From assembly GCA_037481935.1 (NCBI GenBank), contig JBBFKQ010000003.1, positions 1 to 64,000 of the forward strand: a stretch of 64,000 nucleotides of DNA, in the 5' to 3' direction. Below are positions 41,270 through 45,797 of this stretch, piece after piece (the first letter of the stretch is position 1; every line of letters begins with the position of its first letter). Made by a program: the position numbers and the translations under genes. Below the pieces are notes generated by a model, which was not told the origin of the DNA, did no database searches, and was given only the letters and a program-made list of their open reading frames with translations. This stretch comes from Aquificaceae bacterium. Lineage in GTDB: Bacteria > Aquificota > Aquificia > Aquificales > Aquificaceae.

Positions 41270-42052
41270 ATGTGGCTTCTTTACCGTCGGGGTGGTCTCG
41301 GGGATACGCTTCTCACCTTCCCCCTTCTTGAGCTCCTAAGAGAGTCTGGCAAGACTGTCTGGGCTGTGGGCAACACGGATTACTTTTTACTTGCAAAGGA
41401 GGTGGGATGGGCTCAGGTGGTAAGTTCAGAGATTCCCGAAAGAGAGTTTGAGGGAAGAATCATCATAAGTATGGATGGAAATCTAAAGCCCTTTCCGGAA
41501 AGAAGGGTGTGGATTGTGGAGCATTACCTGAAAAGCCTCTCTCTGAAGGGAAACTTCTCAAAAGTTCTGCCCATAGAGCCCGCAGAAAATGGCCTCCTTG
41601 AAGGCTATGCAGTTCTTCATCCCTCCAGCGGTTCATGGAAGAAAAATCCACCTCTTGAGCTTTTTCTGCGTATAGAGCAATTTCTTAAAAGAGAGGGCTT
41701 CAGAACCCTATACCTGATAGGTGAAGCAGACCAGTGGCTAAAAGACCACATAAAAAATTACTTTGAGAGTTTTTCACCTCTTGAGATAGCAAGGGCACTG
41801 AAGAGGGCACGGCTTTTCGTCGGTCTTGACAGCGGGCTTTCCCATCTTGCCAGCTACTGCGGACTTCCAACTTATATCTTCTACGGTCCCACGGACCCCC
41901 TCGTGTGGAGACCAATAGGGGAAAGGGTTTTTCAGATAAGCCTCGGGCTTTCCTGCAGTCCATGCTTTCCAGATGTTTGCGAGGAAAGGAAATGCCTTCA
42001 TACAGATTTGCTCTTCAACAGGTTTCTCATGCTATACAACATGCAGAGTTGA
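41270..42052 (+). CDS. Glycosyltransferase family 9 (heptosyltransferase-like)
   Basis: 260 residues, shorter than the 320-350 of WaaC/WaaF. The N-terminal RRGGLGDTLLTFPLLELL is the GT9 acceptor-side motif. The nucleotide-sugar domain has HPSSGSWKKNPP, FVGLDSGLSHLASYCGLP and YGPTDPLVWRPIG. A C-terminal cysteine cluster (LSCSPC..DVCEERKC) is also seen in many GT9 proteins. It probably adds heptose to lipopolysaccharide core; the heptose-phosphate kinase is encoded close by at 42830. Confidence 0.82.
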   Translation: MWLLYRRGGLGDTLLTFPLLELLRESGKTVWAVGNTDYFLLAKEVGWAQVVSSEIPEREFEGRIIISMDGNLKPFPERRVWIVEHYLKSLSLKGNFSKVLPIEPAENGLLEGYAVLHPSSGSWKKNPPLELFLRIEQFLKREGFRTLYLIGEADQWLKDHIKNYFESFSPLEIARALKRARLFVGLDSGLSHLASYCGLPTYIFYGPTDPLVWRPIGERVFQISLGLSCSPCFPDVCEERKCLHTDLLFNRFLMLYNMQS

Positions 42053-42083
42053 TACCTCTAAAAAAGAGCTTTGTGATTTTCTT

Positions 42084-42572
42084 GTGAGCCTTGAGCTTGT
42101 CATAGGATTGATAACAATAGTGGGAGCAATTGTAGGAGTTGGTGTTTTTCTTATTATGTACCTGGACAAAAGGCTTGACGATTTTTCTTCCCCAATTACG
42201 GGGATTGAACAGTCTATAAGGGAGTTCAGAGATTATGTTGAAGCTCGTTTAGAAGCCTTGCACAGAGAACTTGCGGAGCATAAGGCGGATACCGCGAGGA
42301 AGTTTGACGAGGTCAAAGCGGACAGCACAAGAAGATTTGAGGAAGTCAAAGAAGAGATTAAACTTGTCAGACAGGAACTTGCTGACCACAAGGCAGATAC
42401 CGCAAGAAGGTTTGAAGAGGTTAAGACGGACAACCTAAAGAGATTTGAAGAACTGAAAGAGGAAATAAAAGACCTCAGGGTTGAAGTCAAGGAGCTCAGG
42501 AAAGAGGTAAGGAAGAGCATGGTTAATAAAGCTCAACACCCCTTATGTGTTCTATGTTATTCCCCCTTATAA
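42084..42572 (+). CDS. Membrane-anchored coiled-coil protein with tandem 36-residue repeat
   Basis: 162 residues from GTG 42084, chosen because earlier starts lie within the GT9 gene and add unrelated residues. One N-terminal membrane helix (LVIGLITIVGAIVGVGVFLI) precedes a long charged coiled coil. Residues about 63-134 hold two copies of a 36-residue unit (LAEHKADTARKFDEVK..., LADHKADTARRFEEVK...). The plan resembles DUF1640-type proteins, but I do not recognise a defined family or function. The 3' 50 bases overlap convergent yraN. Confidence 0.6.
   Translation: MSLELVIGLITIVGAIVGVGVFLIMYLDKRLDDFSSPITGIEQSIREFRDYVEARLEALHRELAEHKADTARKFDEVKADSTRRFEEVKEEIKLVRQELADHKADTARRFEEVKTDNLKRFEELKEEIKDLRVEVKELRKEVRKSMVNKAQHPLCVLCYSPL
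42270..42485 (+). repeat. 108-base tandem duplication inside the coiled-coil gene
   Basis: Two adjacent 108-base units (42270-42377 and 42378-42485), starting CTTGCGGAGCA and CTTGCTGACCA. They encode nearly identical 36-residue coiled-coil segments. Synonymous drift between them shows the duplication is not recent. Confidence 0.75.
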
Positions 42573-45025: not shown

Positions 45026-45053
45026 TTGACAGGAGAAAAATTTTGTATATAAT
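45026..45053 (+). promoter_or_regulatory. Perfect-consensus sigma-70 promoter before a small RNA
   Basis: TTGACA (45026-45031) and TATAAT (45048-45053) are exact matches with a 16-base spacer, the strongest promoter in the window. The expected start is near 45060. It drives the 90-base structured segment that ends in a terminator before sfsA. Confidence 0.8.
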
Positions 45054-45059
45054 AATCAT

Positions 45060-45149
45060 CTGTAAGGATAAAAAAGTTAGGGGCAGTTAGAAACTCCCTC
45101 CCCCTCCCTCCCCTAATTGTTTTGCCCCACCGCCCGGTGGGGCCTTTCT
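45060..45149 (+). ncRNA. Candidate small RNA or sfsA leader RNA
   Basis: The segment from the predicted start to the terminator holds no credible ORF. A stem TTAGGG/CCCTAA (extended as TTAGGGG 45077-45083 with CCCCTAA 45110-45116) encloses a 26-base loop containing several CTCCC/CCTCC runs, which are complementary to Shine-Dalgarno sequences. The terminator hairpin follows 7 bases later. This is the layout of a stand-alone regulatory RNA using C-rich seed loops. The alternative is an attenuating leader for sfsA, whose ATG is 3 bases after the T-rich tail. Confidence 0.6.
45124..45149 (+). terminator. Intrinsic terminator before sfsA
   Basis: Perfect 8-bp stem GCCCCACC (45124-45131) and GGTGGGGC (45136-45143) with a GCCC loop, followed by CTTTCT. 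The tail is short for a strong terminator. The 3' arm is also the only G-rich, Shine-Dalgarno-like sequence before the sfsA ATG. Confidence 0.65.
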
Positions 45150-45152
45150 AAA

Positions 45153-45797
45153 ATGAAGTTCCCAGAACTGATAAAGGCAAACTTTATTCAGAGACTCAAC
45201 AGGTTTGTGGGACTCATATCCCTTGAGGACAAGGAACTTACCGCATACATACGCAACACCGGCAGGCTCAGGGAATTACTCTTTTCTGGCAATGAAGTAT
45301 ATGTAGCCGAAAAGACAATTGGCAGGCACCCCTTTGAAATAATCCTTGCAAAGAGGGGAGATTATCTCGTCTGTATAGACTCCCACATAGCTCCAAAGCT
45401 TTATGTAGAATGGGTAAGCTCACCGGCCATCTTTGAGCCCCGCTTTGGAAACAAGAGGTTTGACCTCCTGATAAACGGAAGGCCCATTGAGGTGAAGTCT
45501 GTTAACCTCGTAGAGAACAACACAGCCCTTTTTCCAGATGCTCCAACCCTGAGAGGTAAACAGCACATAGAAAAGCTCATAGAACTTTCAAAAGAGGGAT
45601 ACAACCCGCTCATAGTTTTTGTAGTGCAGAGGGGAGATGCGGAAGTCTTCTCTCCCAACTGGAGGGTGGACCCCGAATTTTCAAAGGCTCTACTGAGATA
45701 CTTTCAGCTTGGTCTTGAGATAAGAGCTTACAGATGTTCCGTCAGCCTTGAGGAGATTAAATTAAAAGAAGAGATACCCGTGGAGGTTCTGCCATGA
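45153..45797 (+). CDS. sfsA: SfsA family DNA/RNA nuclease-fold protein
   Basis: 214 residues from ATG 45153; the longer frame from TTG 45117 would translate the terminator hairpin. The family motif RFDLLINGRPIEVKSVNLVE and FPDAPTLRGKQHIEKL are intact, preceded by AYIRNTGRLRELL. SfsA was named for sugar fermentation stimulation; the fold is nuclease-like and its true role is unclear. The start has no free Shine-Dalgarno. Its stop overlaps the nicotinamidase ATG. Confidence 0.9.
   Translation: MKFPELIKANFIQRLNRFVGLISLEDKELTAYIRNTGRLRELLFSGNEVYVAEKTIGRHPFEIILAKRGDYLVCIDSHIAPKLYVEWVSSPAIFEPRFGNKRFDLLINGRPIEVKSVNLVENNTALFPDAPTLRGKQHIEKLIELSKEGYNPLIVFVVQRGDAEVFSPNWRVDPEFSKALLRYFQLGLEIRAYRCSVSLEEIKLKEEIPVEVLP

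Follow-up and report, generated by a model that had tools for sequence, protein, structure and literature searches.

A candidate C-rich small RNA gene conserved across the Aquificales

Anatomy of the locus

In the window, i.e. the whole stretch of 64,000 nucleotides of Aquificaceae DNA analyzed here, a strong promoter and a hairpin lie between a divergent aspartate kinase gene on the left and sfsA on the right (45153..45797, + strand; NCBIfam TIGR00230), which raises the question of whether this segment is a leader of sfsA or an RNA gene in its own right, and of what such an RNA would do. We favor, with somewhat better than even confidence, the reading that positions 45060-45149 constitute a free-standing small-RNA gene, probably encoding a trans-acting C-rich sRNA that pairs with G-rich ribosome-binding sites. 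The computed evidence comprises a promoter, an ultraconserved tract, a covarying terminator, and conservation in Aquificaceae and Hydrogenothermaceae that is independent of the neighboring genes.

The promoter (45026..45053, + strand, reading toward the sRNA) is composed of the -35 hexamer TTGACA (45026-45031), a 16-bp spacer and the -10 hexamer TATAAT (45048-45053). The first-pass annotation had described it as an exact match, which we confirmed: TTGACA-N16-TATAAT occurs a single time within the 64 kb, while shuffling expects 0.02 occurrences. The spacer sequence AAAAATTTT (45032-45047) reappears in the promoter spacer of many Aquificaceae copies, and in genome G019 the layout TTGAC-AAAATTTT-TANNNT was observed at the sRNA gene only. 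Elsewhere in the window, a 199-aa ORF (41973-42572) carries repeated units of the ADTARRFEEVK type.

Judging from the position of the promoter, transcription is predicted to start at about 45060-45066, which would place a variable 5' segment at 45060..45093 (+ strand), including the G-rich heptamer TTAGGGG at 45077-45083. It is followed by the ultraconserved 20-nt C/U tract CTCCCTCCCCCTCCCTCCCC (45094..45113, +; RNA CUCCCUCCCCCUCCCUCCCC), with its repeated, anti-Shine-Dalgarno-like CCUCC words, and by an A/U-rich linker, UAAUUGUUUU (45114..45123, +); the heptamer CCCCTAA spans the junction of the two (45110-45116). An 8-bp terminator hairpin with a GCCC loop, GCCCCACC-GCCC-GGTGGGGC (45124..45143, +), precedes the tail CTTTCT (CUUUCU in the RNA; 45144..45149, +), which is nearly invariant in Aquificaceae and marks the predicted 3' end, 3 nt short of the sfsA ATG at 45153. 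The hairpin and its position just before the start codon were thus correctly described in the first-pass annotation; its description of the tail as T-rich needs correcting, since the run of T residues there is a weak one (CTTTCTAA). Folding of the complete RNA is better than that of its shuffles (z about -2.5 to -2.8), an effect of the terminator alone, since the score falls to -0.66 once the terminator is removed. In several folds predicted for 37 C, some of the tract is base-paired.

Conservation and recorded transcripts

A DNA search matched 58 of the 61 Aquificaceae genomes at E<=1, the best matches ranging mostly from 7e-80 to 1e-7; for a few genomes, the matches were at chance level alone. 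Within the Aquificota genomes, we searched two covariance models. Out of 112 genomes from the order, 82 gave a match to the first (R1) with E<=0.01, the weakest of these matches being doubtful, in agreement with the conservation anticipated for the Aquificales. The second (R2), although trained on Hydrogenothermaceae sequences only, picked up the RNA of Aquificaceae at those very loci, the E values being 1e-7 to 1e-10 for the most part; its matches were weaker in genus g11 and in some of g4, and in family f5, which belongs to the same class and another order, they ranged from 1e-7 to 6e-4. A pattern scan covering one genome per species (84,980 species) returned 31 loci, 30 of them titled Aquificota or a subgroup of it; the remaining one is titled Acidobacteria, and its 98,060-bp contig has the same size as an Aquificaceae contig.

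When 12 genomes belonging to the window's genus were compared, mean identity was 99.4% over the 56-nt block that runs from the tract through the tail, against 67% for the 35 nt ahead of it and 68% for the first 600 nt of sfsA. TTGACA and TATAAT-like hexamers are located 5' of nearly all Aquificaceae type-A copies having upstream DNA. The TTGACA promoter is retained across copies though the spacers vary. The tract takes the form AAACUCCCUCCCCCUCCCUCCCC in Aquificaceae, now and then with extra CCCU units, and the form ACCUCCCCCCUCCCUCCCCC in Hydrogenothermaceae, where it lies near the predicted 5' end, directly after a TTGACA/TATATT-type promoter. The C-rich runs, expected to be conserved and unpaired, proved near-invariant and mostly unpaired, with partial pairing in some folds. 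As a separate observation, the 3' end of a tRNA-Ser(UGA) gene (L288, 1427-1517) has the 13-mer TCCCTCCCCCTCC in common with the sRNA tract, probably by chance; G019 and G003 show a similar match.

Across 28 Aquificaceae sequences, pairing of the terminator stem holds in 100% of cells, with both sides changed at five of the eight pairs; in Hydrogenothermaceae it is paired in 14/14 rows, with two-sided changes at 6/7 pairs. Two other helices behaved differently. The TTAGGGG/CCCCTAA stem, proposed at first to enclose the C-rich loop, was paired in 54% of cells, no better than slid controls, which rules it out as a feature of the family and leaves it, at most, as a trait of the window's genus. In part of the Aquificaceae, a 5' GGGAG/CUCCC hairpin covers the first tract unit (79% of cells paired), with no two-sided changes among the Aquificaceae rows. 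This hairpin is not essential, because Hydrogenothermaceae have no counterpart and the tract begins the RNA there.

Two members of the family already have transcripts on record, in Aquifex aeolicus. In genome G003, which we take to be that of A. aeolicus VF5 (an assignment that leans partly on the coordinate match itself), R1 matches lie at 989724-989822 (+) and 1168985-1169084 (-). An RNA of A. aeolicus named Aae-65 reportedly goes back to Willkomm in 2005. The dRNA-seq study of Lechner (2014, PMC4227106) lists n68, the same RNA as Aae-65, at 989704-989840 (+) with 476/756 reads, and n75 at 1168974-1169071 (-) with 158/79 reads; n75 was additionally found by northern blot, with signal from both strands. 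Both published loci overlap our matches with agreeing strands, and since these two homologous copies coincide with reported ncRNAs, transcripts of the family exist in A. aeolicus, as the proposal of a discrete transcript had implied. The main text of that study treats n68 and n75 as separate candidates, gives no function, leaves the polarity of n75 open and aligns them in few species (4/2 and 3/3), whereas in our analysis both belong to a single family, and a strand is assigned to each.

No Rfam family reached its threshold in our scan, in line with the earlier statement that no named RNA family fits; RF02344 (ar14) scored 12.9 bits against a gathering cut-off of 58.8. The alpha-r14 or 'cuckoo' RNAs of alphaproteobacteria that this model represents (among them NfeR1) likewise possess an ultraconserved unpaired anti-Shine-Dalgarno motif, CCUCCUCCC, on diverging stems (PMC10746234). 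However, they have three hairpins with the 9-nt motif on each, while the Aquificota RNA has one linear 20-nt tract; CCUCCUCCC is absent from both the Aquificaceae and the Hydrogenothermaceae forms, in which single U residues split the C runs and a single hairpin is conserved. The sRNAs sX13 of Xanthomonas and HPnc5490/RepG of Helicobacter use C-rich motifs to target G-rich ones close to translation starts (PMC3771888); their C runs are 4-5 nt long and located in loops. The conserved C-rich regions of IsrR (Staphylococcus) and FsrA (Bacillus) pair with Shine-Dalgarno sites, and these RNAs end at an intrinsic terminator, as here, but the regions are short and split. IsrR is controlled by Fur (PMC9410917), which is echoed by a Fur-like box in family f5, unlike the window promoter, where no significant box was detected.

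The RNA thus displays traits of the class of C-rich trans-acting sRNAs: a conserved C-rich region, unpaired except in some folds, and, judging from the sequence, its own promoter and intrinsic terminator. Should the proposed mechanism be right, it would act as alpha-r14, sX13, IsrR or FsrA RNAs do, but through one long linear tract in place of short loop motifs; with no Rfam threshold reached, it is best described as a new family belonging to an already known type of RNA.

Putative targets and competing functions

According to the mechanism that we propose, a strong housekeeping sigma-70 promoter would produce an RNA of ~85-95 nt, ended by the intrinsic terminator, and the C/U tract would serve as a long single-stranded seed. 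This seed would pair with G-rich stretches, chiefly ribosome-binding sites, and so reduce the translation of several mRNAs; the pairing, almost entirely G:C, would be expected to survive the growth temperature of a hyperthermophile, and Hfq may assist it. Two Hfq homologues score above the Pfam cut-off in all 11 Aquificales genomes tested (in the window's genome at G000:C2:222289-222477 and G000:C8:25313-25489), making an sRNA network plausible. For the Hfq of A. aeolicus, nanomolar affinity to uridine-rich RNA has been reported (PMC5379935).

Target prediction, based on gene calls from a simple script, covered the whole of G019 and 700 kb (45%) of A. aeolicus. The CCUCC words of the tract match the 16S 3' end ACCUCCU. 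In G019, the tract pairs on average ~1 kcal/mol better at translation starts than in mid-gene, and the pairing sites peak at the Shine-Dalgarno position; strong duplexes nonetheless showed no enrichment at starts relative to mid-gene, 18% of shuffled tracts reached the value of the real one, and none of the predicted starts carried a perfect complement of at least 10 nt. Agreement between orthologues was weak and mixed with Shine-Dalgarno conservation, and the hfq starts were unremarkable as targets. Across the sequence covered in the two genomes, the predictions gave no overall signal exceeding that of ordinary Shine-Dalgarno pairing. The proposed blocking of Shine-Dalgarno sites by the seed therefore fits the anatomy and the better mean pairing at starts, without standing clearly above shuffled tracts; the predicted targets decide the matter in neither direction.

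Two individual leads emerged, both weak. The densest cluster of tract-complementary starts in A. aeolicus falls in the type I-B/III-B cas/cmr operon (G003:C1:246792-262955), where 8 of the 16 starts lie at or below -23 kcal/mol; over the 45% of the genome covered, the permutation p value was 0.003-0.017 at three of four thresholds of our own choosing and 0.17 at the fourth, and the cluster was not repeated in G019. The second lies inside a PII-like coding sequence of the window's own genome (L287, G000:C7:87718-87730), where 13 nt are perfectly complementary to the tract, as are 11 nt in the corresponding G019 gene; the codons concerned encode VVGRGREGG, and the richness of this peptide in Gly and Arg could by itself account for the G residues.

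The missing signal at translation starts and the near-invariance of the tract would also suit one conserved protein partner. The tract might thus sequester a C-binding protein, such as the transcription factor Rho, which favors unstructured C-rich RNA, or another RNA-binding protein. We consider this improbable, yet the best of the competing functions: a tract of ~20 nt is short for a Rho site, and selection by Rho alone gives a C/U tract no reason to hold its U positions.

Slightly less probable, in our estimation, is a narrower version of the sRNA reading, in which the RNA would be a Fur-controlled, iron-sparing sRNA like FsrA or IsrR. Eight loci of family f5 (L317, L318, L319, L320, L322, L323, L324 and L325) carry TGA[GT]AACTATTATTA in the promoter, overlapping the -10 element and no more than ~60 nt 5' of the C tract, with 11-12 of 14 matches to the 7-1-7 Fur box consensus; the box is duplicated in G114 and present as a tandem copy in L319. 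We regard it as a weak regulatory lead. Scored against the same consensus, the window promoter gave a non-significant 10/14 (p 0.10), and no significant box was found at the Aquificaceae promoters tested, save L062 (p 0.012), or at most Hydrogenothermaceae copies. Nor does the box stand beside feoB in the f5 genomes, even with two mismatches allowed, and a proxy enrichment revealed no excess of Fe-S-type proteins among the predicted targets.

The remaining candidate close to the gene itself is a cis-acting leader or attenuator, in which the terminator and its G-rich 3' arm (GGUGGGG, 45136-45142) would set the transcription and translation of sfsA. The hairpin ends 9 nt from the sfsA ATG, there is scant space for a separate sfsA promoter, and the adjacency is retained in genera g1, g2, g7 and g10. 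However, sfsA lies 3' of the RNA in these four genera only. In the others, thymidylate kinase-like, purD-like, permease, ABC protein, rhomboid-like and other genes follow (named by eye from their N-termini), and at all Hydrogenothermaceae loci examined the RNA adjoins genes other than sfsA, so that across the genera and loci compared there is no constant linkage to sfsA. The distance from tract to sfsA also varies among relatives (59-68 nt), which shows that the frame of an in-frame TTG at 45117, from which sfsA would be lengthened through the hairpin, is not conserved, and the tract is conserved far above sfsA. Gene context across genera accordingly rules out an sfsA leader as the main role, the alternative raised in the first-pass annotation, and we see little chance for this reading as a whole. 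In the window's genus, sfsA is probably transcribed by read-through of the terminator, which may feed the gene as a side effect.

Least credible of all is a DNA element that would act on replication or on the divergent aspartate kinase gene. At 45094-45113, the minus strand does read G4 A G3 A G5 A G3, which fits the pattern of a quadruplex, and its C-rich complement could form an i-motif, but the conserved promoter and covarying terminator indicate RNA, the Hydrogenothermaceae form (CCUCCCCCCUCCCUCCCCC) is without four separate runs of three, and the divergent neighbor varies between genera. The RNA, in short, stays constant while its neighbors change, and with its strong predicted promoter, conserved tract and conserved terminator, the locus is best read, as was first suggested, as a discrete and conserved sRNA gene.

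Implications for the Aquificota

Conserved base-pairing sRNAs are rarely traced past the genus or family, and this RNA is shared by Aquificaceae and Hydrogenothermaceae and, it appears, by an additional order; its putative seed hardly changes, while the promoter spacer, the 5' part, the letters of the stem and the neighboring genes do. A broader and frankly speculative interpretation, which we think unlikely to hold in full, is that of a class-wide, probably ancestral Aquificota sRNA whose near-invariant 20-nt C/U seed would, at high temperature, mask G-rich ribosome-binding sites; the seed would stay constant, while its targets, for instance the CRISPR-cas operons of Aquifex, and its regulation, by Fur in a different order, would shift between lineages. 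The analysis also joins two orphan ncRNAs of A. aeolicus, listed apart in the main text of the 2014 study, in one family, and gives n75 a strand. We know of no sRNA target in hyperthermophiles, and this RNA offers a candidate for Hfq-linked regulation in these organisms.
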